A stretch of 64,000 bases of DNA, taken from Nymphaea colorata (lineage: Eukaryota > Streptophyta > Magnoliopsida > Nymphaeales > Nymphaeaceae). Under the pieces are notes generated by a model. That model did no database searches. It was not told where the DNA came from and saw only the letters and a program-made list of their open reading frames with translations. Made by a program: the position numbers and the translations under genes. Positions 8,990-53,356 of this stretch are shown here, in pieces (position 1 is the first letter of the stretch; every line of letters starts with the position of its first letter). The stretch covers positions 8,747,001 to 8,811,000 of the forward strand of contig NC_045148.1 in NCBI RefSeq assembly GCF_008831285.2. The letters are read 5' to 3'.

Positions 8990-9367
8990 CTATCGATTCA
9001 GATCGATGATTTGCCTTGAGAGAGAATCGTCCACGGATCTCCACAGCCGCTCCATCAACCCCGGGCTCAACCTGACCATGAGGACGCAGAACTCCATCTG
9101 GTCGAGAGCGCCGTCGCCGTCCAAGTCTCCCTCCCTCACCATCTCCCTCGCCTCCTCCTCCGTCATCCCTTCCATCCCCAGCGCCTCCGCCTTCCTCTTC
9201 AGGCTCTCCCAAGTGATCAACCCGCGCGTCGGATCCATTATCAGCCTGAAGCCGTTGCAGAGCTCGCTTATCAGACCGTCTGCCCCCAGCTTTTCCGCCA
9301 TGTGGGGCAAGAAATCCTGGAACGTCTGTTCTTCAACCATGTTCCTGGAACTCTCTCTGTTCTGCAT
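8990..9367 (-). CDS. KIC/PBP1-like single EF-hand calcium-binding protein (copy 2)
   Basis: Single-exon gene of 125 residues. Residues 16-43 carry the family block FQDFLPHMAEKLGADGL followed by ELCNGF. Residues 81-92 form a complete EF-hand loop, DLDGDGALDQME, followed by FCVLMVRLSPGLMERLW. In Arabidopsis, members are small cytosolic calcium sensors that bind KCBP kinesin (KIC) or PINOID kinase (PBP1); the partner here is unknown. It is the better-conserved member of the pair with 594-938 and keeps the charged residues before the loop (EEEAREMVREGD). The start at 9367 is the first in-frame ATG; Met10 is a possible alternative that would still keep all conserved parts. A TATA box at 9434-9442 fits a short 5' UTR. 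Confidence 0.88.
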   Translation of the reverse strand: MQNRESSRNMVEEQTFQDFLPHMAEKLGADGLISELCNGFRLIMDPTRGLITWESLKRKAEALGMEGMTEEEAREMVREGDLDGDGALDQMEFCVLMVRLSPGLMERLWRSVDDSLSRQIIDLNR

Positions 9368-11644: not shown

Positions 11645-14219
11645 ATGGAAGTTACACCAAGGCTGCCCCACCTCCCATCTTTCCTCCTCATCCTCCTCCT
11701 CACCACCTACCTTCTCCCCTTCTCCTCCTCCTCCGCCACCACCACCACCACCACCACCATCTCCGCCACAGCCGGCCTCGTCATCGAGCTCTTGCACGTA
11801 GATGCCCACATGAATTTAACCTACCAGCAACACATACATGCGGCCATACGCCGAACCCATCACCGGGCTCTCCACCACATGCAGAACAGAAAGAAAGTGC
11901 CACTTCGTCAACAAGCAACAACTCTCGACACGCCACTACACGGCCTCAATGGAGAGTACCTTATGAGTCTAGCACTCGGAACTCCGCCAACCTCCTTCTC
12001 GGCCGCCATGGATACAGGCAGTACTCTTATATGGGCTAAGTGCTTTCATCCAACAGACGCGCAAGACCTGCCCATTTTTGATCCGGAAAGCTCCTCCTCC
12101 TATTCAACAGTTCCATGCAACAACTCACTCTGCAACATCAATAGTGTTTTTACTGGTTGTAATGGTACCGATTGTGCCTACATGGCGCAGTATGCAGACT
12201 CATCAGCCAGTATGGGAACTCTCAGTTTTGAGACTCTCACCTTCGGCTCCCTGACAGTTAATAACATCGGATTTGGATGTAGCTTTAGGGCTGACGGCTT
12301 CGACAGCTATGGTGCTGCAGTAGTTGGGTTCAACAGAGGGCCCTTATCTCTCGTCTCTCAGTTGGGATCATTGATTGATCACCAATTCTCCTACTGCTTG
12401 GGTGGGTATAATGCTTCCAACCAAAGCAAGCTCAAGCTTGGACCCAGCAGTCACTCGATCACATCGGATGCCTCAACAAGTACTCAATTGTTGGTAAATC
12501 CTGCAAGTCCTGAACACTATTATGTCGCTTTGCATGGCATCAGTGTCGGCGGGAAGCGCCTCCCCATCCCAGAGTCTGTGTTCCAGTTCAGCTCTGATGG
12601 AAGCGGGGGAGTTGTTGTTGACTCAGGCTCAACTTTTACAGGCCTTGCTGAAGAGGCATACAGGTATGAACCCCTTCCCTTGGCTTTCTTTCTTTCCTTG
12701 GCCTCTGCATAGTAAAGGATCTTGCATCCTAGGAATTCGATGAGATCACATTTGAATACGATGAGCTCAATTGAGCGTGCCACGACAGAAAAGCCAATAT
12801 CCTAGCTAGTATCTTCTTTCGATCCCTACTACAAAACTTGAATAGGATCCTATATGTATACTGTATTTTTGGTTCTCTAATATTATTTTTCACCCTCGTT
12901 TGTAAAACCATTTCTCTTTTCTTGATACGATTAAATTGGACTGAAAATACCAGTTAATTGCTTTTGCAGTTATCTAATTCCTGCACATAAAATTAGATTG
13001 GAATGATATTAAAGTCTTCCCGTTTGAGTGGACGCGAACATATGATATCAAGTGCATAGAGAATGAGGGGATCTTTCCTCCTCAAAATAGTTTTTAGCAA
13101 GCTTGCCAACCTACCTACCGATTTTATTCATCTGCTCGACAAGTTAGATATCAGACCTGAATTTGTCTAACTCCCATGAAGCAAATTTAGTAAAGAAAGC
13201 TCAATCTGTTGGCTAGATGTGCTGGCATTGGTTTGGGCTTTATCTTTAATTTGCAATCGAAATCTTGAAAAGTTATTTGGATTCTGCGTTTTTCATTTGC
13301 ATGAAGGCAGTTCAATTCAATTATTATACTTTTTGCAGCTTGGTATTGTCATTAATTTACATGGAAGTTGTTAATTAATTTCAGTATCGTAGATGCAGAC
13401 GAATAATTTCGTCTATATCGTACTACTTCTGCAACCTAGCTAAATGATAATGCCGCTGTTATTGGAGATGAAATTCTCTCACCCTTATTCTCATTGGCTT
13501 GAGTTTTCTAAATCAAGACATTTCTTGGAAAAAAAAAACTATTTAAAATATCAAGCCATAGTGAATTAATTGTCTACTACGAAGATATAGCATTCCAATT
13601 TACCTAGAGAACAAGGAAGACGCATGAATACAGAACGGACACAAACTCAAAAGCACGAGATATTTAATATCCTTGTCTACCATCTGCTGGCCATGACACT
13701 TCTCATATAGTTAACTCAGAAAAGAGAATTTGCATGAAATATAAAAGGCAACGAACAGCCAGTTGTTTCATAATTGGAAGCTTCTCATGTACATCACGGT
13801 GAATAATAACTGGTGCTGATCATTAGACTATTTATATTGGTAAGATCCCTGATTATGTATAGTTATTGCTAATAATGTTTGATCTTGATGACAGTCTTCT
13901 GAAGGCGGCGTTCATCCAGGAAATTGGTAAACCATCTGTGAATACAACGTCCCTGGATATGGAGACCTGCTTCCAAGGCTTACCCGACTCGATCTCCATC
14001 CCCACTCTCACATTTCATTTTGAGGGCGGCGATCTGCAAGTGCCTGCAGAAAACTATATTGCAGTTGATTCAGTAAAGCAGTTGTCTTGTTTGGCCATTC
14101 TTCCAACTCCAGCCAATGTGAACCTTATTGGTGCCACAACAATGCAGAACTTCCTTGTCAGCTTTGATCTTGGGAGGAACATGATCACTTTCACACCTAC
14201 ACAATGTAGTACATTGTGA
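11645..14219 (+). CDS. Nepenthesin-type (CDR1/atypical) A1 aspartic protease, two exons
   Basis: Exons 11645-12663 and 13895-14219 encode 447 residues. Residues 8-30 are a hydrophobic signal peptide, so the enzyme probably enters the secretory pathway (vacuole or apoplast). A Thr run (32-38) follows, then a prosegment. The first catalytic motif is DTGS at 123-126 (AMDTGSTLIWAKC), the second DSGS at 326-329. Between them is a nepenthesin-type cysteine-rich insert (CNNSLCNINSVFTGCNGTDC, about 158-177) and the flap Tyr183 (QYADSS). The C terminus reads LIGATTMQNFLVSFDLGRN, typical of the plant TAXi_C domain. Donor GT at 12664 and acceptor AG at 13893-13894 join codons in phase 2 (AG+T, Ser340), restoring the family segment EEAYSLLKAAF. 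Without splicing, exon 1 runs on to a stop at about 12712. Both catalytic aspartates are present and no frame damage is seen. The natural substrate is unknown; close types act in defence signalling or protein turnover. Confidence 0.9.
12664..13894 (+). other. Intron of the aspartic protease gene (1231 bp, phase 2)
   Basis: The junctions are CATACAG|GTATGA and GATGACAG|TCTTCT. The intron is AT-rich with no recognised transposon. The boundaries are supported because only this join restores the conserved protein sequence across the second catalytic region. Confidence 0.85.
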
Positions 14220-38285: not shown

Positions 38286-39154
38286 TTGAAAGTTTTGTTT
38301 TTTTTAAGGACATTGCATTCGAGTTACTTTTGTTATTAGAATACAGCTTCTTTTGAGGTCCTCTTTGTTCCTTAGAAAGTATACCTGGCTTTAACCTTTA
38401 GATTCTATGTCTACTTTTACCAGCTAAAATGCCTAACTGGTTGTATGTGTTATACTGGTGCACAAAATTTTACAAAAATAAAAATTAAAAAAAAAATAAA
38501 AAAACTATAAGAAGGCATTTTTAAAAAATACTAAAATGTCTCCATACTCTTCTTACTGCGTAAGTTGAGTGCCCATAATGGCGGAGGCAACTCAGTCTAA
38601 CTAAAAAGTATGAAGGGATTTGTCATGACTGGTGAAGCCAGCAAATGGTGTGACGCCAGTTACAGGTTCGAATTCGGTGAGCGCCATACCCTCACCCAAG
38701 TTCGAGTTGGCATAATAGGGTGGCTCGCCTCCAGCTGTGGCTATAAAAAATGTGATTTGTGTTCCTTTCAACTACAAAATTACATACATTGCCTTTCTCT
38801 GAGATAAATTTCTAAGTCCACTATTTTTGGCTTGGGGATTTTATATCATTTATTGAACAACAATGTCCTCTCTTCATCTGAATGTGGTTTCCTGTGTAAC
38901 AAATGGCAAAAATTTTCAATATTCAATCTGTTATGGATTCGCATCTAGTCAAATATCTTATTAAATTCAGACTCGGTTCTAATATAGTTTGAAATATATA
39001 TCTTATTTCAAATATATGAACATCCGAAAAAAATGGATACAGAGAAGAGTTTATCCAATTCAAATCCGATCCATTATAGAACTACTCATGGGCATCTCAA
39101 TTTCTTAATCACCAACATGAAAATTATAAAATTTCATCTTTGTACAGCGGAATC

Positions 39155-39430
39155 TGTAGAATGTTTGCAAACCTCTTGGTAAAAGTGTGTTAAGAACTAC
39201 AAGGGCTTGTGGCCTTTCCATTTTATTTTGGTAGCTTATGTAGTATGCTTGGTGCGTCTAATAATTGTGGGCTTGCTTTGTCGTGCAAGATAGGTACATG
39301 AAGTTGCATGATTGGTTTGTGTTCGTGAAGTAGGTTCCTCTTCTCAAGGCTCAATTATGTGGACTCTTGGCAAAGTTTATTCCTCAAGTGGGGAAAAAAA
39401 AATGGCAGTTCTTGCTTCATGACTATTCAT
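39155..39430 (+). repeat. Repeat R, diverged solitary copy
   Basis: The ordered blocks GTTTGCAAACCTCTTGG, CTACAAGGGCTTG, GTACATGAAGTTGCA, CTCAAGGCTCAATTA, AAAGTTTATTCCTCAAGT and GGCAGTTCTTGCTT match both arms of the GH3 palindrome (45203-45508 and, inverted, 46003-46278). Here it stands alone, without GH3 sequence, which shows that the palindrome arms contain a dispersed repeat. Its class is unknown. Confidence 0.75.
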
Positions 39431-41339
39431 AGGTTGAAGCGGGTCAGGATCAGTAGCAGAATTAGAAATTTTTAGCTGATGGGTAATGGCTACTGTTGTA
39501 GAAACTTTTATTTTTTATGGGGCAACATACATGAATAAATTCTCATTTTTTATGGGGCACAACATACATAAATAACTAAATAATTATAAGACAAATTTTG
39601 TTGCTAAGGTGGGCAACTGCCCACACCAGCTTACGTAGGCTCCACTACTGGTCAGGTCAGGATCCATATAAGCATCTCAGTTCACAAACTGCTGGTTATA
39701 TGCACTGTCTGGTGCATTAAAAAAAACATGTAGATGATGTAATGATCAGAATACCCTTTGTTAGGAAAAGGAAAGCCTAGTGAAAAAGTTAAAAGTTTTA
39801 AAAAAAAATTGTTTTGAAAATGTCTAAAATACCCCAACTCCCACGAAGCTTTGGTTGGCACAAAAGGAGATGGAGCACAAGAGCATATTATATGTTAGCC
39901 CCAAAAACGGGAATGCGCGTTTCAAATCTCGAAATGACAAAAAATGCTTTTTTTTTTTTTTGCTCTTAACCGTCAAGAAAAATGAAAAAAAGACCACCAA
40001 CTTGAGATTTAGTAAGCATCTTGCTGCATGTTTTTCCCAAATATCGCGTTTTCTTTATCATTATCGTGCTGCTTTTGATGAGTATGTTTTTCACAAATCC
40101 AAAGAGCAGTTTTGCATAAGAACGAGATGCGATGCCTTCTTTGAAGTTGAATCAATCTTTTTGAGATGCATTAGAATGCCCTGGGATTTCGGAGCCATGA
40201 AATCACCAGAGCATCATAATAAATTGAGAGAGAAGGTGCATTAGAATTCATATTTATGTATCGAGTTCTTTTTTGGTAGAAAATGGCTTGAATTTGCAAC
40301 AGTAAAGCATATGGGAAATGGGATCCTAATTATCAGAAAGAAGGAAGCCATGGCTTGAAACTATTTATCCTAACAATTGACGCCCTTGTTCATGCTTCAG
40401 GGAAGAGAAGAGGAGGGGTACAGTAGAAGTTACGTGCATCTGTAATCTTCAGATCTCAAATATCATGACTAGAATTTGACCAATCAAACTGGCGTTCGAA
40501 TCTATTGTTATATAAAATATGTGGATTTATCTCTTGATGTAGACTTGTATTATAATAGTCAAGTGGACCATACTTTATCAGGCTATGTTGGCCAGCTCCT
40601 TGCTAACTTTCAGATTGGAATCTTCTGATCTTTTACTTGATCACAAACAGATCACTATAGCCAAAGTCAATTCTTTAAGCATTGAACAGGAGCACGCTTT
40701 TCACAATATTATAACTTCTGAGAGATCTCTCTATTGAGAAGTCATTAGGCCTACCAGAAAACAACTCTTAAAAACTGGCCAATATGGCTAAGCCCATGTG
40801 ACAGAAAAACCAAAAACGTCGACCCATTAGAAAAATCTGCTTCATAAGTTTTAGCTCAGGGTTTCCGGGAAGAACACGTAAGGCGAAAGATTTCTCTCCG
40901 ATGCTTCTTGGTTCTTGCTTGAGTTATTCCGCTGCTGCCAAGTTGATTAAATTGAGAAGCCATTTGGGTATTGGTCACTGCTTTTTTATTATTTCTCTCT
41001 TCTGTCTCCTCTATAATTTTCTCTATCTAGAGAGTTGGAAAAGAGAGTTGAATGCATTCAAAGAGTGAGGAAGGAGGTGGTCAATCGTCAAACACCAAGG
41101 TGTGGAAATTCCTTTCTTGACTTGAAGGAACTGCTTTGTACATGGCCAATATCTCAGTGGAACTAAACATGTTAAGTGACAGCTATTCGAGAGTATTTTC
41201 TAATACCACAATGGAGAAAGTGAAAGAAAGGAAGGGCAACAAGTGGGGATCCTAACTAAATGTAGCAAGCAACTTCTTTTTTCTCTTTCTAAAGTACTCC
41301 AATTGTGTTGTACAAACACACATTGACACAAGAAAGAGA
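39431..41339. other. Intergenic DNA downstream of the GH3 gene
   Basis: It contains a dispersed repeat around 39450-39660 (GGTGGGCAACTGCCCAC and a GTAGGCTCCACTACTGG end) and a 129-codon plus-strand frame at 39855-40244 with no recognisable domain. The last few hundred bases should include the GH3 3' UTR (minus strand). No other gene is seen. Confidence 0.5.
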
Positions 41340-43924
41340 CTAATTGTGGTTGTTCCATTGCTTGTGGCCAGGTGCCCATTTGGGGCACTTGGGACTGAAG
41401 TAGCTAGAGAGGACTCTAGAGTTGAGCAGCTCAATTATGGGTTTGAACTTCACACACCTTGGGGTCTTGTACTGGTTAATGGAGGCCCCATTGCTGAGGG
41501 CATAGTCCATGAGCTTGTCGAAGGTCCCGGCCTCGACGATCTTGATCTCGAGCGGGCCGATCGACTTGTCGGAGACGCGGCCTTGCCGGTAGACACTGTT
41601 GAGTGACTCTTCTATGGTGAGGCAGCAATCTTCAAAGATACATGGGGGGATTGGAGTTGCACCGTGTTTGAGCTCCCAGAACAGCACATAGTGACCCGGT
41701 ATGGCGCTGGTGTCTGCATGGCTGGTGTACTCGGCGAGGGTGGCATCAAATGGCTCGAGGTGGTGCACGGCATTCTTGACCGCGTTTTGGAGCTCGACCT
41801 CATCGGTCTTGTCGGAATCGATGCTGAGAACCACATTTTTCCGGCAGACGAACTGGAATTGGGGAGCCTTGTTCTTGAAGCCGGAGACCCTCAAGAGATC
41901 ACCAACTCTGTAGCGATAGAGACCTGTAACGACATGATCAAATCAACATCTCAATCAACTACCATTGTAATAAGCAACCACTAGAAATGCAAAAAAAAAA
42001 CCGTGTCAAAAGCACCAATCAAACTCATTTACTACTTCCAGAAATGGCAACCGTTGCTTCTTTATGTACAAAAGCTAAAAGCACAATTTCCTAAACGATC
42101 TTATCCTTCAAGAAATAATATCAAACAAGTGAAAAAGAAACAAGAAATACCACTAGGAGAAAAAGAAGATTTAAACATTCAAATTTCAAGAGGAATGCAC
42201 AAAGAAATATCGAAGTTTTGTCCAATAAAGTTAAAAGAGTCAAGACCACTTCAACGGTGGCATTGTCAAGACAGTTGAAGGAAGCAACAACAAATTCAAA
42301 ACTAAACCAGAACAGTTCTCACCTGCATAAGTGGTAACCACAAGCTCATACTCATGGCCAAGCTTCACATTAACAAGTTCCACAAGTTCCTTCTGTTCCT
42401 TCTCGCTCAGCGTCTTGGAGATGGCATGAGAGTCGGTGACACCGTTGCTTCTGTGAACGGGAAGGAACTCAAAGTAGGCCATGGTTGGGATCAGGGTGTA
42501 GGACACATCCTTGGGGTCACACAAAGGGCTGAGGTTCAGCCCAAAATAGCACTCGGAAGAGGCATACATGGTGCAAACCAGAGGGAGGCCATTGCCATAG
42601 AAATCAAGTGTTGGGATGTACTGCGACATGGTGCCCGTCACAATAACGTCTATGTACTTGGTGTTAGGCCACAGCCTGGGAATGATCCCTTGCCACGAGT
42701 TCTTGCGGCACTCGCGCTCGACGAAGTCGGCGAGCTTGGGGTCCGGCTTGAGAAGTTCGGCCACGGCGGCGCGGACGGAGGGATCCGTGATCCGGTCATC
42801 AAGCTTCCCCGTCCGGATGTCGTCGACGAGTTGAGGCCAGTTTTGTTCCAGGAACTTGATCGCCCGGATGAAGCCGGAGGCGAAGACGGCGCCCACCCGG
42901 AGGACCTCTCTGTGCAGGATGAGGCCGCAGAGGAGCTGGGAGTACATGCTCTGGAAGGAGTCCGGGCACAGGATGGTCTCGTTTGGGCTGGTGTAGTTGG
43001 TGTATGGGTCAAAGGGCCTGTTGGTGAAGTACTTGCTCCTGTAGTAGCTGGTGAGCACCGGGCGGGCCACCAGGCCTCCTGGCGTCCTGGCCTCAGACTT
43101 CACAAAGAGGAAGTACATGCCCTTGCCCTTGTCAAGCCCCGGCACAAACTGGTCCATCACAGGCATCAGCAGACTGTAGAGCAGGGACCGCCTCCCTAGC
43201 TCCTGCTCAATGGTGGGCATCAGCTTCCTCTCTCCTCCCGAAGTTCCTGAACTGCATTTCCAGAAAACAACGGAAGAACCCATCAAAATCAGGAAAAACC
43301 CAAGCAGGAAAAGCATCAAACATTTGTTGGCAGGCGTGATAATGATGCCAGAAGGTGCTTCACATGAAGAACTGCAACTGGCAATCCGCACTGCGCCAAA
43401 CCGATCGCTCACAGGGATTTTGTTTTTTTCTTTTTCCTTTTCTGGAAAATGGAAATGCAACAGTGGAGTACTCCACTGTCCGCCTCTTCTTTTTCTTTGA
43501 AAAAGAGGTCACCCTGCATCTCACAACAACCCTCCGCTCCGCCGGCAACCAGACTCTCTTATCAAACACGGTTCTACAGCGCGGCCGGTTGAGCTCACCT
43601 AGTAAGAAATTCCGACACGGGGTCGGCCGAGAGGATCGGTGACTTGTCGCCATTGGCGATCCTGTGTATGTCGGGCTGTATATCGTCGTAGCCGATGACG
43701 GGAAGAAGCTTCTTGAAGCTCTCCCGGTCGGTCCGGCCGTCGAGGCCGTAGCGACGGAGGTACTCGACATGGGCATTGCGGGAGAGGATCTCCCCCAGCA
43801 CCCGCTCCTGCACCTGGTCCGCGTTGCTGGTCACATCCTCAATGTATTGCAGTGCCTCCTTGAGCCGATCAAACGGCTTAGGGACCATGGCTTGGTCGTG
43901 CTTAACCTTTGGTGCCTCCGGCAT
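41340..43924 (-). CDS. GH3: GH3 acyl-acid amido synthetase (probably group II, auxin-conjugating)
   Basis: Three exons on the minus strand: 43599-43924, 42323-43251 and 41340-41923, giving 612 residues, normal for GH3 (about 600). Introns of 347 and 399 bp have GT-AG ends. The first joins in phase 2 (Ser109), the second in phase 1 (Gly419), each restoring a conserved motif. GH3 enzymes adenylate an acid such as indole-3-acetic acid and transfer it to an amino acid, controlling free hormone in the cytosol. ATP-site motif 1, [10 protein letters not shown], is at 109-118; motif 2, YASSE, at 338-342; motif 3, YRYRVGD, at 421-427. The C terminus ([31 protein letters not shown]) is typical of group II; substrate choice is inferred. 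The start at 43924 gives the usual N terminus; an in-frame ATG at 44131 lies upstream of the TATA box and is not used. A 281-codon antisense frame over exon 2 is a shadow. Confidence 0.95.
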
Positions 43925-44103
43925 GGTTTCAGCCTTAAAACACTTCCTTACTACTAACGCCGTCGCCGGAAAATGACGATGACAAGGACGAAGAAGAAGA
44001 AAAATACAGACAAGGAAGCAAAAGAGCCGGAGTTGCCGGTGAGAGAGAGTTAAGGAAGTGAGAGAGGTGAGGAATGGATGGTGTTGGTGCGGTGTGAAAG
44101 GGG

Positions 44104-44111
44104 TATATATA
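44104..44111 (-). promoter_or_regulatory. TATA box of the GH3 gene
   Basis: The minus strand reads GCTATATATACCCC, about 180 bp upstream of the start codon at 43924, implying a 5' UTR of roughly 150 nt. In the duplicated promoter the corresponding site is CCTATAATACCCC (47431-47443), two bases shorter. I saw no canonical TGTCTC auxin element in the 1.2 kb upstream, only related TGTCNN and CGTCTC words. Confidence 0.75.
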
Positions 44112-44237
44112 GCGGTGTCCTTTGGACTCAAGGGTGCCTGTACTCCACTCGAACCAATGGCTCATTTAAAAATTCCTTTATTTTTAAAAAAATCAAACGA
44201 TCTTTTTTTTTCTTAAGCTCCCCTTTCTCGGGCTGTG

Positions 44238-44855
44238 CTCGTCGTACAAGGAAACCGGCAAACCCGTCTGGGATCGGAACACCGGGGCACACAGTCCCAA
44301 GAGCATAAGCAAATCGTGGGCCCCAACGGCGGGTTTGGCCCCATCATGGGGATGCCACAGTCCCTGTCAGTGAGATCAACTAAGTTTTCGGGTCCAACCG
44401 ACTCCATAGATCCGACCCGAATCTCCACCGGCTGTCGCCGTAACTGTACCGGTGGACCGACCACCGGCCGGCGACCACATTTCCCGGAAACGTCGGCTCG
44501 GGTGGTTAGAGCACGCCCCACGCTTGGGGTTCGGCTGAGCTGTCCCTGGGGCCCACACTCCAACCGCCTGCACTGAGGGCACGTGTACGAGTGAAACTCT
44601 TTCACTGTCCCTGTCATCGCTCCCAAAATAAATTTCCGAAGCTCGGAATTCCTCACCGAGTCAGTGAAACCGTCTCGCCCGGCAGTCCACAAAGGTTCGG
44701 ATCGGTCCGAGGGTCACGATTCAGTAGTCCAAGGAGTTCACGGTTCCGGAACACCTGGAACAGGGAGATTGGCTGAGCCCACCGCGGCAAGGTGGGCGAA
44801 GGAGGCAAGGCGATCGGCGTGAGGGCGGTTGTCGTTACGCGGCGGCGGGGGACGA
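44238..44855. other. Left-arm-only GC-rich block in the GH3 upstream region
   Basis: This 618-bp segment is missing from the right arm, where AAAAAGTCA runs directly into CAGCCCGAG (about 47299-47302). The junction shows only a CA microhomology, favouring deletion in the right arm over insertion in the left. The block is GC-rich, has a CACGTG motif near 44581 and gives open frames (for example 44213-44692 minus) without a known domain. Confidence 0.55.
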
Positions 44856-45196
44856 TGACTTTTTCTTGTTTTCTTTTTTTTTTTCCCGGCGATCTTTTGG
44901 TTCCCCGGCGACTCGCCGGCCGAGCTCATTCGGTGGGTTCGAATACGACAGCGTGCGGGGCGGACCCACCGGAGGTGGGTCCGATCCGATCCGCTTCGGG
45001 ACACGCGGCGGAGCCCCTGCCTCATCTCCGTCATGTCTTTAGCTAGCTGGCGTTGCATCTCCTGGAAGCACGCCATGCCACGTGGCCGGTGACGGTCAAA
45101 GCTGACCGGGAGACGGACGGCCGGGATTCGGGTCGGCCTGAGCTGGCTCAGGAATCATGGACACACGAGCCCCGGTCGCGCGTGTGATCGGCGAGT
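44856..45196 (-). repeat. GC-rich block, left copy, with a short gag-like frame
   Basis: Read on the minus strand it contains a frame beginning MACFQEMQRQLAKD (start at 45076) and then RRVSRSGSDRTH. The copy at 46978-47300 has MAEFEEMQRQLAKD followed by the same second block. An EMQRQLAK-type start recalls the first residues of some plant LTR-retrotransposon gag genes, but no further gag, protease or polymerase motif follows, so this is weak inference. Both copies hold a CCACGTGG palindrome (near 45077 and 47081) and are inverted relative to each other. Confidence 0.45.
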
Positions 45197-45202
45197 TTTG
45201 TA

Positions 45203-45508
45203 TAGAAGAGTCTTTGCAAACTGTAGAGTGTTTGCAAACCTCTTGGAGGCATGCTATTCTTGGTGAAAGTGTGCTACAAGGGCTTGGGATTTGATTTTGA
45301 TAGCTTGTGCAGCATGCTTGGTGCATCTACTAATTGTGGTCTTCATTTGTCGTGTAATATATGTACATGAAGTTGCACCAGAGGCTTGTGTTAGCAAAGA
45401 CGGTTTCTCTTCCTAAGGCTCAATTAAGTGGATTCTTGGCCTCAAAGTTTATTCCTCAAGTACTAAAAGGTGGCAGTTCTTGCTTTAAGACTGATGATAG
45501 GCTGAAAT
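45203..45508 (+). repeat. Repeat R, left palindrome arm
   Basis: It is the same sequence as 46003-46278 inverted and a closer match to it than to the solitary copy at 39155-39430. It directly adjoins the GH3 exon-2 fragment at 45509. Confidence 0.8.
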
Positions 45509-45768
45509 GGCCAAGCTTCAGATTAACAAGTTCCACGAGTTCCTTCTGTTCCTTCTCGCTCGGCGTCTTGGAGATGGCATGAGAGTCAGTGACACCGTTG
45601 CTTCTGTGAAGGGGAAGGAACTCAAAGTAGGCCATGGTTGGGATCAGGGTGTAGGACACACGAAGGGCTGAGGTTCAGCCCAAAGTAGCACTCGGAAGAG
45701 GCATACATGGTGCAAACCAGAGGGAGGTTTTGCCATTGCCATAGAAATCAAGTGTTGGGATGTACTGC
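45509..45768 (-). pseudogene. GH3 exon-2 fragment, antisense arm of hairpin
   Basis: It corresponds to 42356-42626 of the intact gene (about residues 318-408, from the SQYIPTL region to VKLGH). It is very similar by eye but has a deletion of about 16 bp near 45660 and a small change near 45727 (GGTTTTG). It cannot encode a functional enzyme. It faces its inverted partner at 45769-46002 across the palindrome centre and abuts repeat R at 45508. Confidence 0.9.
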
Positions 45769-46002
45769 GATGGCAATGGCCTCCCTCTGGTTTGCACCAT
45801 GTATGCCTCTTCCGAGTGCTACTTTGGGCTGAACCTCAGCCCTTTGTGTGACCCCAAGGATGTGTCCTACACCCTGATCTCAACCGTGGCCTACTTTGAG
45901 TTCCTTCCCCTTCACAAAAGCAACGGGGTCACCGACTCTCATGCCATCTCCAAGACGCTGAGCTAGAAGGTACTCGTGGAACTTGTTAATGTCAAGCTTG
46001 GC
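45769..46002 (+). pseudogene. GH3 exon-2 fragment, sense arm of hairpin
   Basis: It encodes the [15 protein letters not shown] motif region through [16 protein letters not shown], then an in-frame TAG (about 45964) where the intact gene continues. The match resumes to VNVKLG and stops at 46002, where repeat R begins. Unlike the antisense arm it lacks the deletion of about 16 bp, so the two arms have diverged independently since they formed. Confidence 0.9.
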
Positions 46003-46278
46003 TTAAAGCAAGAACTGCCATTTTTTTAGTACTTGAGGAATAAACATTGAGGCCACCACCTAATTGAGCCTTTGGAAGAGAAACCGGCTTTGCTAACACA
46101 AACCTCTGGTGCAACTTCATGTACATATCTTACACGACAAATGAAGACTACTATATGCATGAAGCATGCTGCACAAGCTATCAAAATCAAATCCAAAAGC
46201 AAGCCCTTGTAGCTTGTAGCACACTTTCACCAAGAATAGCATACCTCCAAGAGGTTTGCAAACACTCTTCTATACAAA
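46003..46278 (-). repeat. Repeat R, right palindrome arm
   Basis: Inverted copy of 45203-45508, from AGCAAGAACTGCC at the GH3 junction to TCTTCTATACAAA at 46278. Confidence 0.8.
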
Positions 46279-46977
46279 GATGAAAAATACTCATAATTTT
46301 CACTATGCTTCTCTTTCATAATTTTAAAATCTAACTACATCTTCTTTTGCTTTTTCCCCTACAATTTCGCCACCCTCTAGTGTGTAAGAAGCTGGAGCAT
46401 TGAATGGCTGTAAAAATAGACGTCCTAAAAAAAAAAGGGGTGAGAGACAAAGATCGATGCATATTAAACTATCAATGATATCTCAACCAAAACTTAACAC
46501 TCTTCAATACCATCAAGATAAGAGCCATTCAGGTTTGAACTAGGCCGTGGTCATCCTATGCCACCCAACCCGACAGGTTTCGATATCCAAATACAACATT
46601 TAGACTTTAAACAATTGGTGACCCGATGAAAATATCAGGTTATTGCCAGATATTGCCAAAACCAAAGGTTTGAACGAATTCCACAATATTATAAAGATGT
46701 TTTACTAGGTAGATATAATATTGTGACATTTTGGACAAGGTCGTCAATAGGACCAGGCTGTACATTCTAGGACCAGCGTGGCTTGGACCGAACCCGACCG
46801 ACTCCGGACCTGTAAAAAAATGGCCGCGACTGACCAAATGAATGGGCGAGATCCAAGACCATACTTTTATATTAAGGTCTACTTCAATTAATTCGTCGAA
46901 TATTATACCCTTCTCCCTTCCTGTGAACACGAAAAAACAATTCCTCGGAGGAAAATCGGGACCAGGGGAGCGGCCAC
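46279..46977. other. Right-arm-only block of the palindrome
   Basis: This 699-bp stretch has no counterpart in the left arm, where repeat R joins the GC-rich block directly at about 45197-45203. It is AT-rich, with (CT)- and A-rich tracts and no gene. It is either an insertion in the right arm or sequence deleted from the left. Confidence 0.6.
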
Positions 46978-47300
46978 AAAACTCGCCGATCACACGCGCG
47001 ACTGGGGCTCGTGTGTCCACGATTCCTGCGACAGCTCAGGCCGACCCGAATCCGGGCCGTCCGTCTCCCGGCCACCTGCCACGTGGCATGGCGGAATTCG
47101 AGGAGATGCAACGCCAGCTAGCTAAAGACAAAAGGGAGACGAGGCAGGAGCTCCGCCGCGTGTCCCGAAGCGGATCGGATCGGACCCACATCCGGTGGGT
47201 TCGCCCCGGACGGTGTCGTATTCGAACGCACCCAATGAGCTCGGCCGGCGAGTCGCCGGGGAACCAAACGATTGCCGGGAAAAAAAAAAAGGAAAAAGTC
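46978..47300 (+). repeat. GC-rich block, right copy, with a short gag-like frame
   Basis: Inverted partner of 44856-45196. Its frame begins at 47089 (MAEFEEMQRQLAKDK) and reads on through RRVSRSGSDRTH. No downstream retroelement domains follow. Confidence 0.45.
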
Positions 47301-47302
47301 AC

Positions 47303-47617
47303 AGCCCGAGAAAGGGGAGCTTGAGGGTGCTCAAGAAAAAAAGATCGTTTGAATTTTCAAAAATAAAGGAATTTTTGAATGAGCCATTTGTTCCAGTGGA
47401 GTACAGGCACCCTTGAGTCCAAAGGACACCCCTATAATACCCCTTTCACACCGCACCAACACCATCCATTCCTCACCTCTCTCACTTCCTTAACTCTCTC
47501 TCACCGGCAGCTCCGGCTCTTTTGCTTCCTTGTCTGTATTTTTCTTCTTCTTAGTCCTTGTCATCGTCATTTTCCGGCGACGGCGTTAGTAGTAAGGAAG
47601 TGTTTTAAGGCTAAAAC
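47303..47617 (+). promoter_or_regulatory. Duplicated GH3 core promoter and 5' UTR
   Basis: Inverted copy of 43930-44235. From CACAGCCCGAGAAAGG through the TATA region (CCTATAATACCCC, 47431-47443) and the CT-rich 5' UTR to TTTTAAGGCT it differs from the functional promoter at only about ten positions in the last 235 bp. It faces right, away from the hairpin, and so forms a divergent pair with the real GH3 promoter. The altered TATA sequence may weaken it. Confidence 0.8.
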
Positions 47618-47947
47618 TCTATTGTCACAAAAAATGTGTACGAGTGTTAGACAGTGGAGAAAAAGACGGATATAATACGGCAAAGTTATATATTTTAAAA
47701 ATAAAACGAAAAACTTTAAAACATTTAATAAATATTAAAAATTATAAAAAATAAAAATTAATAAAAAAAAGGCAAAAAAGGAAATTAATGGTAAAAAACA
47801 AAAAAAACATATAATACCGGTATTATATGGGTATTATAAGTGTTTTTTGTTTTTTGACGTTTTAAAAAAAACATGTTTTATACGACTGACTTGTTTTTCA
47901 CATTTTATACGCTTTTTTTTAATAAAACATATTTTTTGTAACAATGA
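47618..47947. mobile_element. MITE (330 bp) inserted in the duplicated GH3 5' UTR
   Basis: The left end is TCTATTGTCACAAAAAA and the right end, inverted, TCATTGTTACAAAAAA. The element interrupts TTAAGGCT / GAAACCATG, which is continuous in the intact gene. Flanking CTAAAAC (47611-47617) and CTGAAAC (47948-47954) are a 6-of-7 direct repeat and look like the target duplication. The interior is AT-rich and non-coding. The superfamily is uncertain (hAT-like or Mutator-like). Confidence 0.75.
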
Positions 47948-47955
47948 CTGAAACC

Positions 47956-48052
47956 ATGCCGGAGGCACCCAAGGTTAAGCCCGACCCAACCATGGTCCCT
48001 AAGCCGTTTGATCGGCTCAAGGAGGCACTGCAATACATTGAGGATGTGACCA
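47956..48052 (+). pseudogene. Truncated GH3 exon-1 fragment
   Basis: It starts with the GH3 ATG and encodes [10 protein letters not shown] through QYIEDVT, nearly the same as the first 32 residues of the intact gene. The homology ends abruptly at GATGTGACCA and unrelated sequence follows, with a stop at about 48160. An in-frame ATG inside the MITE end (47944) would extend it by four residues. It is non-functional as an enzyme. Confidence 0.9.
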
Positions 48053-48263
48053 CTTTCCCTTCTCAAACATTGTACATTTTGAAGCTTGCACATAGTGAGG
48101 TTAATGATGACCAACCAATCCTTGTGGTTGAATCATATAAACATTTCCTCAGCCTGACCTAAAATCTAGATTGGGTTTGAATCATTATGTTCGCCTGGAG
48201 TTGGTGTTTTATACCATTGCAAGAAAGCTCTGTGGACACCTATGTGCGTCCAAGAATCTTATG

Positions 48264-48276
48264 CTCTGATACCATA
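48264..48276 (-). mobile_element. Primer-binding site remnant of an LTR retrotransposon
   Basis: The minus strand reads ATGGTATCAGAGC, the classic sequence complementary to initiator-Met tRNA used by plant copia-type elements. An LTR would be expected at higher coordinates. The DNA just right of it (48277-48360) is AG-rich, with no clear LTR termini. The preceding 48053-48263 may be internal or leader sequence of the same element, which begins exactly where GH3 homology stops. Confidence 0.5.
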
Positions 48277-50238
48277 AAAGGAGAATGTAGAAATAGGAAA
48301 GAAATTAAGTGGTTTGATGAGAAAGAGAGAGAAGAGAGAAAGAGAGAGATTATCTATGTCCACTAGAATAAATTTTCTGTCTCAGTTTTTATGTTAATTT
48401 GCTTGAGGTTTCATTATATTTTATCTGTGTATCACAATTTGTTCACTCAGTTTCCTTTTTTTTTTGGATTGAGTGGGTTTTCAACAATTATGTCTTTTCT
48501 TAAGTGCTTGTTAATATTGGCAATGACACCTGTAGAACCTTTAGTTTCCTTATCTTTGGATTGTAAGGTTTATAGCAATTATCTTCTTTCTTAAAATTTA
48601 GCTTGCTAATATTGGCAATAACACCCCTATAGCTTATCCAGAAATGGAGCAGAGCCTTGTTTCCCCTCAAATTAAAATAAAAAATAAAAAAACTATATAC
48701 AAATTTCAAAAATGTTAGTTTAATCTAATAAAAGATTTGAAAAATTCTATTTCACCTCCTGTTGAAATTTTGAAATTACACAAAAAAAACTTGTGTCTGT
48801 TGCATGTTTTCCATTTTGAGCTGGATTCTTTTTCTTCATGGGACATTTGATATCCTTAGATTTGTGGATTGATATGGTATGATGTGCCAAAAGATTCACG
48901 ATAAAACCCATGGATCATTAACTAAAGATTTTAGGTCAGACTTAGGTTCCACACTTAGATCCTCATTTTATTTTTTACATTTATAAAATGATGGATTTAA
49001 GATTCGAAAGAGGAAGGGTTTGATCTTAAATCCATGGTTTTCAAACACTAAGGATCTTAAATTAGAGACTATCAAAGGCCCCCTCAATGTCTTCAACTTG
49101 TCCATGAATGCCTTCAACGTGTCCAACCTTATCGTCGCCTTTAATGTGAAGCTATCCTTAATATAGGGAGAGGTGGACAGAAAACACCAAGTTGGTGCCT
49201 TGTGCTTGGTGCTGTAGTTGTTTAGAGAGAGAAAGTTGTGAACAAGGGGACACAAAAAAGAGGGTTGACCACCAAGAACGAGGATTCAAACCCAAGGATT
49301 GGCTTGCCGCCATATCCGTTCTATCTCTTCCTGTCCCCCATACTCTCAACTCATTACTGTAGATCATGCGTTAAACAATGTTGTACAATTGGCTTTTTCT
49401 AGTGGGCACTCTCTCCATCAGGCAACCATGCTTCCAGCTACCTCTGGCGGCTCAGCCCCCGCGCAGAGATCGCACCATTTTTTCTCCATTTCCCACGGAC
49501 CCTCTTCTCCAGAGTCCCCAAATGGGCGAAGCTTCGATCACAGTGAAACTTGCCAAGTAGATTATAGACATTCTTTCGCAGGAGCTTTGTTATTAAGTTA
49601 ATATGTCATTGTTTTTTTGTTTTTCCAAGGACTGCATTAAGCATCCGTTTCAGCACAGAAATTCCCTCACTGGTACTTACATAAGCTGCAATTAATATGC
49701 ATATATATAATTTCTTTCCTCCTGTTCAGTGTACCTTTATTCTTTGACATCTTTCTTTGCCTTGTCCTTCGTCGTGTTATAGCATCTGATCAGGTGGATC
49801 ATAAAGTTTTAACTATCTTTTTTCAACTGGTAACTGTATATGTACTGAAACAACCAGACTAGCACAGAAACTCGACTTTGTTTGATCACTCACCATCAAT
49901 CAGCCATTTTCTCTTTCTTTAGCATAGTGGCCGAGCGGAGCAACCCCAACGCGTGAAACGCAAACAAGTTCAGCACTAAAAGAGAATTATGCGAAGATAA
50001 ACTTTAAGTACAATACCTGCTACTAATTTAAAGCATCTTTTGTATGATTAGCTAGAGCAATATGCCATGAAAAAGAAGGGTCTTGTTACTGTTAAAACGC
50101 ATTACAGCGTTCAATATTAAACCTCAAAAGCTTAAGCAGAAATTATGGGCCATGAGCCGAGCCCTGTTAGGTTTGTCAGTAAATGATTCAAGTCTGAACA
50201 AGTAGTATAATTATGTTCATTTGACTCATTCCCTAGGG

Positions 50239-50239
<1 letters not shown>
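48277..50239. other. Intergenic DNA with old repeats
   Basis: It contains a repeat-A-like copy (48636-48780) and a segment at about 49160-49340 with TTGGTGCC..TTGGTGC words and, inverted, GGGTTTGAATCC, which resembles a tRNA B box. Short frames at 49299-49601 show no known domain. No gene supported. Confidence 0.5.
48636..48780 (-). repeat. Dispersed repeat family A, diverged inverted copy 5
   Basis: Inverted, it reads TTTCAAAATTTCAACAGGAGG, AAATCTTTTATTAGATT, then TTGAGGGGAAACAAGGCTCTG. The AT-rich core and GAGG...AAGGCTC end suit family A, but divergence is high. Confidence 0.35.

Positions 50240-50282
<43 letters not shown>
50240..50282. repeat. (TA)n microsatellite
   Basis: About 21 uninterrupted TA units followed by a GA-rich tail (GGAGAGAGAGAGATAGAGAG). 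Confidence 0.95.
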
Positions 50283-50284
<2 letters not shown>

Positions 50285-50789
50285 AGAGAGAGAGATAGAG
50301 AGCTTGTAAAGCAGAGCCTTTTAACATAGAAATTATCGCACTTCAAAAAAAAAAAAAAGACTGGCTCACAATAACATGGCCTAGTTATTTTATTAGAGTA
50401 AGATTGGGAAGGGGAGCAAGACTGCCTTGAGGGTTAATACCCAGTGTAGCCACTGCTGGAACCATGCAACTTCCGCCATGGTTTTGATAAGAATATTTAT
50501 TGTCACCTCAGCGTGTATCATGGGAGACGGTGCTTTGCCTGCTGGCAACATGTAGGAATTGGTATAAAATATTCAGAGGAAGAAAGGTAAGATCCTGCAA
50601 GAGGATGGCATAATGAAGATCGCGCTCGTTTCTTTATTAACTTTTCTAAGTTGGTTTAATTATGACCTGAAAGCCATCTTGTGTCTTTCTTAGCTGTACG
50701 AAAGACATGTCACATGCATGCTTTTCCATTCTAATCAAGTTTCTTTTCTCCCTTAATTACTCTCTCAATAGGAAGCTAACACGAAAACT

Positions 50790-50791
<2 letters not shown>

Positions 50792-50857
<66 letters not shown>
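50792..50857. repeat. (TA)n microsatellite
   Basis: About 33 uninterrupted TA units. It creates the spurious poly-(Ile-Tyr) frame at 50707-50937. Confidence 0.95.
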
Positions 50858-50861
<4 letters not shown>

Positions 50862-51576
50862 TTCTAATCCAATCGATTTGCTTAATGTAACTTTAATTAA
50901 AGTAAGCGGACGCACGCTCTATTGGAGCTACATCTAATGAGTGCAATCAGGGGGCATGAAAATTTTTCAGGCTTAACGTAGTTACTTTTGTTTAATTTAA
51001 AATCTTATGGTAATGCTTATATTAATATTATAAGGTGACCGAAAACATTTTTAAAAGTGGCATTGCATGACTAAATCATGGAACAGTGGGATAACAATCA
51101 TGTGAAAACAGCAAACTATTGAGAAAGCGCGCTAACTTTCCTAGACCTTTGGTTTTAAGTAAGAGATTCGAGTCTTCAACTTTTGTGTTGAAAAGAGAGC
51201 ATAAAGGCGATAAATTCTTAGCGTGGGTGATCAATTTGGAGTTTGGATTTTCTCCTTTTCTTTTGAAGAAAAAGGAATAGTTAAAATAATAGTAAAACTT
51301 AATGAGTACGGCGACAGCAGCAGTTGCTGCTGTCAGGACAAAGAAACGCATGGCAATAAAAACTGGAAGCTGTAAAGAAGTGGTTACTAAGGCATGTATC
51401 TTGAACGGACAATAGAATCCTGATTTTCACACAATTACCTATCAGCGCAGTAGCTTGGAATTGTTGTTAAGTGTCTACGTTTCCTACCTCCTTCTCGTCG
51501 ATTTGTTGCTTCTTTAATTGAGTGCTCTGGCACTGGCTTCATATATGGAGGGCAATGCGATGAGCAGTTTCTAATT

Positions 51577-52113
<537 letters not shown>

Positions 52114-53356
52114 TCTTAACATCCTATATGCCTATATGGCTTATGTTACCTTATTAGACTACATTAAAATAACATGGATTAACCAGCATAGAATGCAGTT
52201 CTTCAGTTCTTATTTAATCTCTCCATTTAGATACTAACTTGTGAGGAATTCGTGTGTGTAATGTTTCAAAGTCTTCCATAAAATTGAGCAGCTGAACTAT
52301 TGATCTCAAAAACCAAGAGTATATACATCATGAACTTCCATGGCCAACATCAAAATGAGATAGGGAATAGGTATGACGTACAATGATGATGGATCCCACT
52401 GACAACACATCAGTTTTTGATATGGACCGATATGATAGGCATCCGATAAGGTTCTCGACACTAGATTTTTTTGCATATCAGATCAAATCTTTCAAATCTT
52501 TGATGTAACATGGCATGAGTAATAAAATCATCGAAGAACATGATCAACTGATCATCCATTTATCCACCATAACAAGCATGACTGAAACATGTCCACATGC
52601 ATGTGCAAGTGTTCTTGTATTTGAGGATTAGCTCGTAGTTCGGATCACAACACCATAGTATAGAATTATGCAAATCATTCGGGTACTTGCAACCCTTAGT
52701 GCACCATTCTAAGTTAATTCAGAGTTGAAATCCTATTGCTTATTATTATCGTTATGTATCATTATTATTAATTAAACTCTGAAATAATGCATTGGTTATA
52801 AGGTTGCTACACGTTGATTTGGTATAGAGCAGAAGAATTTACTAATTTTACCGTTGGAAACCAAATCATGCTTGTGGTAAGTAATTGAAGCCAATTTGGT
52901 TTAAGATTAAGCTAGCTCTCCCAGAAAAACTTTTGTTTAATTTCTTCTACTTGTTCACCATTCCTGTTCACCAACAGTATCCTAGGCTGCACGTTGTCTG
53001 GGATTTCTTCCAATTATGGCGATAGCAACCACAGACAGATCCAAATTTCATGATTTGCGGTACTCATTCTTCAGGATGCCCCACTATGTTTTCATGTGAA
53101 TAAGAGAATTTATGTGTGGTCTCAAAAAGAAGCAGTACTTTTTTGAGTCCTTGTCTGTGGATCCCGTTTGCTCAGAGTGACTTATTGTGTCTATCACACT
53201 AGCGCTTTTAACATGGCTTATTTTATCTCCTTCTTTTTCTTTCACTTTTATGAATTGTGACTTCATGGCTTTTAAATGTCAAAATGTGCTCCTGATCGAT
53301 GCCGACATTGCAAGAATGATTTAGGAACAACACTTGTAGTGGGTAGCTATCGAGAG

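Follow-up and report, generated by a model that had tools for sequence, protein, structure and literature searches.

Several described systems resemble parts of the locus reported here. Mu killer of maize is likewise a partial inverted duplication that includes the promoter end and turns within the coding region (about 1.3 kb in). A hairpin RNA was proposed, and the silencing of its transposon target, its activity and its transcripts have been demonstrated; silencing accompanied short antisense transcripts, not the read-through hairpin that was proposed first (PMC3440606). The soybean I locus also contains natural inverted genes of a host enzyme with homology to working family members. Its inverted chalcone synthase (CHS) genes form two perfect clusters of 10.91 kb, and 21–22-nt siRNAs have been demonstrated (PMC3804491). 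MIR163 and MIR161 share the foldback arms with similarity to a coding source, and MIR163 is reported to have copied the promoter of its source as well (PMC1790633, PMC3237417). Drift and decay has been called perhaps the most common fate (PMC1790633). At the DNA level, fold-back inverted duplications are similar: an arm copied back through the flank and an unduplicated spacer, which is typical at the turn (PMC7467729, PMC3907307). In yeast with normal Mre11 and Sae2, the median fold-back loop is 36 nt, and a fold-back assay used stems of 4–15 bp (PMC7467729). Human inverted junctions had 2–8 bp of homology in 13 of 21 cases and spacers of 766–70,466 bp (PMC3907307).

The locus is located in a window of 64,000 nucleotides from Nymphaea colorata, contig C11, positions 8747001–8811000, the whole stretch of DNA analysed, and coordinates refer to this window. 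It differs from each of these systems. The target of Mu killer is a transposon; here it would be a host gene, and the arms have drifted. In comparison to the soybean clusters, the arms are shorter and diverged. Unlike MIR163 and MIR161, the locus has no significantly protected segment and its promoter copies point outward. In comparison to the published fold-back duplications, it is interstitial, only a few kb long, old and has less junction homology. With a probability of about 70%, a single inverted duplication by fold-back or template-switch synthesis left the locus as a scar that is now drifting. It seems nearer to the drift-and-decay fate than to a MIRNA of the MIR163 or MIR161 type.

The source of the duplicated sequence is gene A, a GH3 gene with three exons in a splice model with GT-AG introns (exon 1, 43924–43599; exon 2, 43251–42323; exon 3, 41923–41340). 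The closest solved structures in a PDB search were GH3.6 and GH3.5 (E = 0, residues 1–610), and exon 2 alone matched the Pfam profile PF03321 with 285 bits. The full-length GH3 domain and the intact frame of 612 codons characterise gene A as a predicted intact acyl-acid amido synthetase gene, in agreement with the sequence-only reading, which had placed an intact GH3 gene beside the hairpin. The features of the locus are:

39151–39438, + strand: solo R, a single older copy 3′ of gene A and the only further copy found
41340–43924, − strand: gene A, GH3, similar to GH3.5/GH3.6, 612 amino acids (splice model)
42354–42626, − strand: source of the GH3 fragment of the hairpin, within exon 2 of gene A (alignment)
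43828–45201, no strand: left outer arm, covering gene A from its promoter to codon 32, 5′ leader included (alignment)
45202–45506, + strand: left R copy, named R′ (sequence, alignment)
45507–45770, + strand: left GH3 exon-2 arm, antisense to the GH3 mRNA in a + strand transcript (alignment)
45743–45769, no strand: 27-nt loop at the turn (alignment)
45770–46002, + strand: right GH3 exon-2 arm, sense to the GH3 mRNA in a + strand transcript (alignment)
46003–46278, − strand: right R copy, inverted (alignment)
46279–46975, no strand: spacer between R and promoter, right only (absent on the left)
46976–47617, + strand: GH3 promoter with 5′ leader, copied in inverted orientation, without 44238–44868 (alignment)
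47618–47947, no strand: 330-bp insertion, MITE-like, right arm only (imperfect inverted repeats of 19 nt close to its ends)
47948–48052, + strand: inverted start codon and first 32 codons of gene A, outer end of the palindrome (96% over 105 bp)

The central hairpin spans 45197–46278 and turns at 45770. Each arm consists of R and some 80–90 codons of gene A. Aligned with its own reverse complement, the element matches over 45225–46268 at 81% of 1113 columns with gaps counted, far above chance. The GH3 fragment is present first in antisense and then in sense, as had been read from the letters, and is flanked by the inverted R copies around 27 unpaired nucleotides, where a loop of about 27 bp had been noted. 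The left arm differs from exon 2 (42354–42626) at 7 of 259 aligned bases and carries a 14-nt deletion and a 5-nt insertion. The right arm differs from the inverted positions 42598–42357 at 10 of 233 bases and has a 9-nt deletion. The YASSE motif lies in the peptide covered by the exon-2 fragment. The described near-perfect complementarity holds in stretches, not throughout: the longest perfect run between the arms is 64 bp, located in exon 2. An RNA of 45190–46290 is predicted to fold as a near-continuous stem with −848 kcal/mol, a single value with no shuffled baseline at that length. Exact matches to gene A were found for 83 of 244 21-mers of the left arm and 88 of 213 of the right arm. Perfect arm-to-arm duplexes are formed by 60 21-mers, and 32 are common to both arms and gene A. 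No exact hairpin 21-mer occurred in six further GH3 stretches, which were hits of a genome search and less than the whole family; the best match in each had one mismatch.

The hairpin is the centre of a larger palindrome of 4.2 kb (43828–48052), which the sequence-only reading had missed; its interval of 45203–46278 contains the hairpin and is too narrow, as the symmetry runs on through R to both outer ends. The stretch 43828–45201, from the GH3 promoter through the 5′ leader to codon 32, recurs inverted at 46976–48052. Pairing is 96% for 43828–43932 with 47948–48052, 93% for 43926–44237 with 47300–47617 and 89% for 44869–45201 with 46976–47295. The inner hairpin and the outer copies of promoter and exon 1 share one centre at 45770. 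The inverted promoter copy points rightwards; like the promoter of gene A itself, it is directed away from the hairpin. Its TATA run, TATATATA, has become TATAATA. The auxin-response elements TGTCTC and TGTCGG were absent from both strands of 44081–45201 and 46976–47617. No other match to the GH3 promoter was found in the genome, and paralogues on the contigs C1 and C2 matched the coding part only.

The symmetry is interrupted by indels of 697, 631 and 330 bp, each on one side only. The left arm lacks the 697 bp that are kept as the right spacer, with TTTGT shared at the junction of R′ and promoter. The right arm lacks the 631 bp of 44238–44868, with TG shared at the junction. For both large deletions, the sequence missing from one arm is present on the other. 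The 330-bp insert lies after the leader and just before the start codon of the inverted GH3 copy; its inverted repeats are 89% identical. In the genome, the right spacer has only weak matches of about 100 bp; its part 46487–46589 (about 100 bp) has at least six weak copies elsewhere with 72–75% identity. In the window, a comparison of 48053–51000 and the right spacer with the rest of gene A and the flank of solo R yielded only a weak 33-bp match at the edge of R (E = 0.48).

The turn reads GTACTGCGA/TGGCAATGG; the direct source continues with GACATGG and the inverted source begins with CTATGG. At this point, 28 source bases (gene bases 42599–42626) are single-copy. The two arms mirror each other around a single turn and an unduplicated spacer, as in fold-back inverted duplications. 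At the junction TGCGA/TGGCAATGG, 1 bp (A) is shared, or 4 bp (ATGG) if 2 bp were lost later. A 9-bp microhomology (TGGCAATGG) was considered and rejected: these bases are the start of the inverted arm. One base pair of homology at the turn is below the published ranges, and plain template switching without pairing is therefore as open as a fold-back. Where the exon-2 segment joins the R-like sequence, GG and perhaps ATGG are shared. The outer end at 48052 has no readable second junction.

The arms have diverged evenly. Among the segments taken as unconstrained, differences between the arms amount to 16/247 in R, 25/320 in the distal promoter and 11/219 in the exon-2 arms and are homogeneous (P = 0.44). 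The segments with one copy in the working gene are also homogeneous (P = 0.31), with 4/98 in exon 1, 3/155 in the leader and 8/155 in the proximal promoter. Pooled divergence is 0.066 (52/786) for the unconstrained class and 0.037 (15/408) for the class with a working-gene copy (Fisher P = 0.046, with classes assigned after the numbers were known). Drift of just one copy in the latter class would produce such a lower rate, and the two rates fit a twofold difference (P = 0.68); this factor is weak evidence, because a single rate also fits all six segments together (P = 0.16) and the classes are post hoc. The arms appear to be of one age along their whole length, as in a fold-back inverted duplication, and the even divergence fits one inverted duplication and subsequent drift. 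Exon-2 changes were polarised by gene A and six paralogues: three are common to both arms, four are left-only and seven right-only. Most divergence thus followed the inversion. At two of the three shared sites, five of the six paralogues agree with the arms, and gene A may be what changed there; its private changes in exon 2 number at most two.

The duplication of R is older. Between solo R and the two copies in the hairpin, 50/269 and 42/240 sites differ (0.175–0.186), a larger divergence than between the hairpin copies themselves. These values are from a trimmed alignment; misaligned edges inflate untrimmed values to 23/263 between the arms and 0.22–0.25 for solo R.

The scar may have formed as follows. 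Upstream of gene A, some 2 kb from its start codon, an R-like sequence would already have been present, and a GH3 exon-2 segment would have been joined to it. Synthesis may then have folded back after the 28 single-copy bases. Reverse copying would have included the exon-2 fragment, R, the spacer, the promoter, the leader and the first 32 codons and would have ended at 48052. In the drift afterwards, 697 bp would have been lost on the left and 631 bp on the right, and the right arm would have gained the MITE-like insert. A putative transcript across the centre would form a long double-stranded RNA, a possible substrate for Dicer-like enzymes and thereby a possible source of siRNAs against gene A. 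The single event leaves the upstream position of R unexplained, and R′ is older than the exon-2 fragment.

A history in two steps, which we consider unlikely, differs from this course only in how exon 2 reached R′. An upstream tandem GH3 copy, with R′ as its 3′ flank and the exon-2 piece as its remnant, would have decayed through deletion, and the inverted duplication would have come later. R′ and the exon-2 piece match the order and orientation of R and gene A. With a clock and trimmed R distances assumed, an exon-2 piece joined to R′ at the time of the R duplication and drifting freely should have acquired about 15 changes before the inversion, but at most three are seen (P = 1.7e−4), and gene A has no more than its two private changes. 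Under the same assumptions, the observed changes are in agreement with a piece residing meanwhile in a gene copy under coding constraint (P = 0.33, 30% of the neutral rate assumed).

A silencing role of the hairpin is possible, and long self-complementary arms with homology to the target gene are present, as at Mu killer and the I locus. An active inverted-repeat siRNA locus that lowers GH3 is nevertheless doubtful. A read-through transcript or one starting upstream of a promoter would fold and be diced; siRNAs of 21–22 nt would cut the GH3 mRNA, and those of 24 nt may direct methylation of the GH3 promoter via the outer arms. The long stem, the 21-mers shared with gene A and the precedents in soybean (PMC3804491) and maize (PMC3440606) are consistent with this activity. 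Among the three unconstrained segments, the exon-2 arms have also diverged least (0.050 vs. 0.072), a trend in the direction of a functional hairpin, but this slower drift is not significant (P = 0.34). Nor is the 64-bp perfect run significant, with P = 0.06–0.11 within exon 2 and 0.22 over all unconstrained arms. Neither promoter copy faces the hairpin, and the exon-2 arms carry separate deletions, of 14 nt on the left and 9 nt on the right.

A methylation footprint did not emerge as a significant contrast from the CpG and polarised-change counts of the arms. In each copy of the distal promoter, 40 CpG remain, with observed/expected ratios of 1.21 and 1.28 and 33 shared, which argues against long-standing methylation there. 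Of the 23 changes polarised in exon 2 and R together, seven are C-to-T or G-to-A, six of 13 on the right arm and one of 10 on the left. The leader and proximal promoter have 10 CpG in the right copy vs. 13. These right-arm values make a mild methylation effect on the right possible. In appearance, the locus is closer to an aging scar of DNA repair than to a regulator under maintenance. The geometry in which the sequence-only reading had seen an siRNA source or newborn MIRNA stands; the function gained no support, with arms drifting alike, no significantly protected segment and outward promoters.

There is only a slim chance that the whole 4.2-kb palindrome works as a silencer in cis and trans, with the exon-2 arms giving 21–22-nt siRNAs against the GH3 mRNA and the promoter arms 24-nt siRNAs against the GH3 promoter. 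If so, one repair event would have put a brake on an auxin-conjugating enzyme in a water lily.

A newborn MIRNA gene of the inverted-duplication model is very improbable. Young MIRNA loci are recognised by extended similarity of their arms to a coding gene (PMC1790633, PMC3237417), and MIR163 is reported with a copied source promoter (PMC1790633), but here the stem is hundreds of bp long without a significantly protected block of about 21 nt, the promoter copies face outward, and no Rfam family matched the window at gathering score.

The symmetric R arms of about 300 bp that enclose a gene piece suggested a Pack-type non-autonomous transposon with R as long terminal inverted repeats and captured GH3 sequence. 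This reading was rejected, because R was found at this locus only and the symmetry passes R into the promoter; what remains of its probability is minimal. A search of the 407.8-Mb genome (783 contigs), which scores the best candidates only and skips very common words, found no dispersed copies of R, and by this distribution R is no transposon family. A target-site duplication was not seen at 45197/46278, where the flanks GGCGAGTT and GATGAAAA differ.

Long-read libraries are known to produce palindromes as artefacts. A fold-back read in the library or assembly can be practically dismissed here, because a single misread molecule would not produce arms that differ at 2–8% of sites by segment and carry large one-sided indels.

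As a drifting scar, the locus would be a readable intermediate of the process believed to give rise to hairpin siRNA and MIRNA loci. A single site shows the source gene, the copied promoter, the turn and the subsequent losses on one arm or the other, together with an internal clock. If small RNAs are active, a datable repair event would be tied to a new regulator. If they are inactive, the locus documents drift, the fate that was called perhaps the most common (PMC1790633).

For N. colorata, 27 GH3 genes are reported, 12 on chromosome 3 and seven on chromosome 8, and a floral GH3 gene is named Nycol.K00594 (PMC13149400). The letter suggests chromosome 11, and the name could belong to either GH3 locus on C11, where the Pfam search of the genome had matches at 7.50 and 8.79 Mb. 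The terms ‘inverted’, ‘hairpin’, ‘siRNA’ and ‘pseudogene’ are absent from the main text of that paper (PMC13149400). By title, a GH3 hairpin was not found among the listed matches of the literature on GH3 with inverted repeat or duplication.

Genome-wide, 85 Pfam GH3 matches (gene pieces) were obtained, 39 on C3 and 23 on C8. Six matches on C8 (2626495–2630079, − strand) are spaced by exactly 609 bp; five span the profile part 223–304 and the sixth 121–304, and four of the six contain stops. They are apparently GH3 fragments in a tandem array. On C3, three GH3 pieces (22690555, 22708863 and 22728069) in both orientations have identical stops (two TGA, one TAG, one TAA) and are surrounded by stop-free GH3 matches on both strands; they appear to be a duplicated, partly inverted cluster.

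Further features of the window are a direct repeat of 226 bp with 95% identity and 313-bp spacing (51576–52114) and an ungapped direct repeat of 280 bp with 84% identity, 8.4 kb apart (643–922 and 9039–9318). An ORF of 355 amino acids (11645–12712) contains DTGS and DSGS motifs and is presumably a plant aspartic protease.
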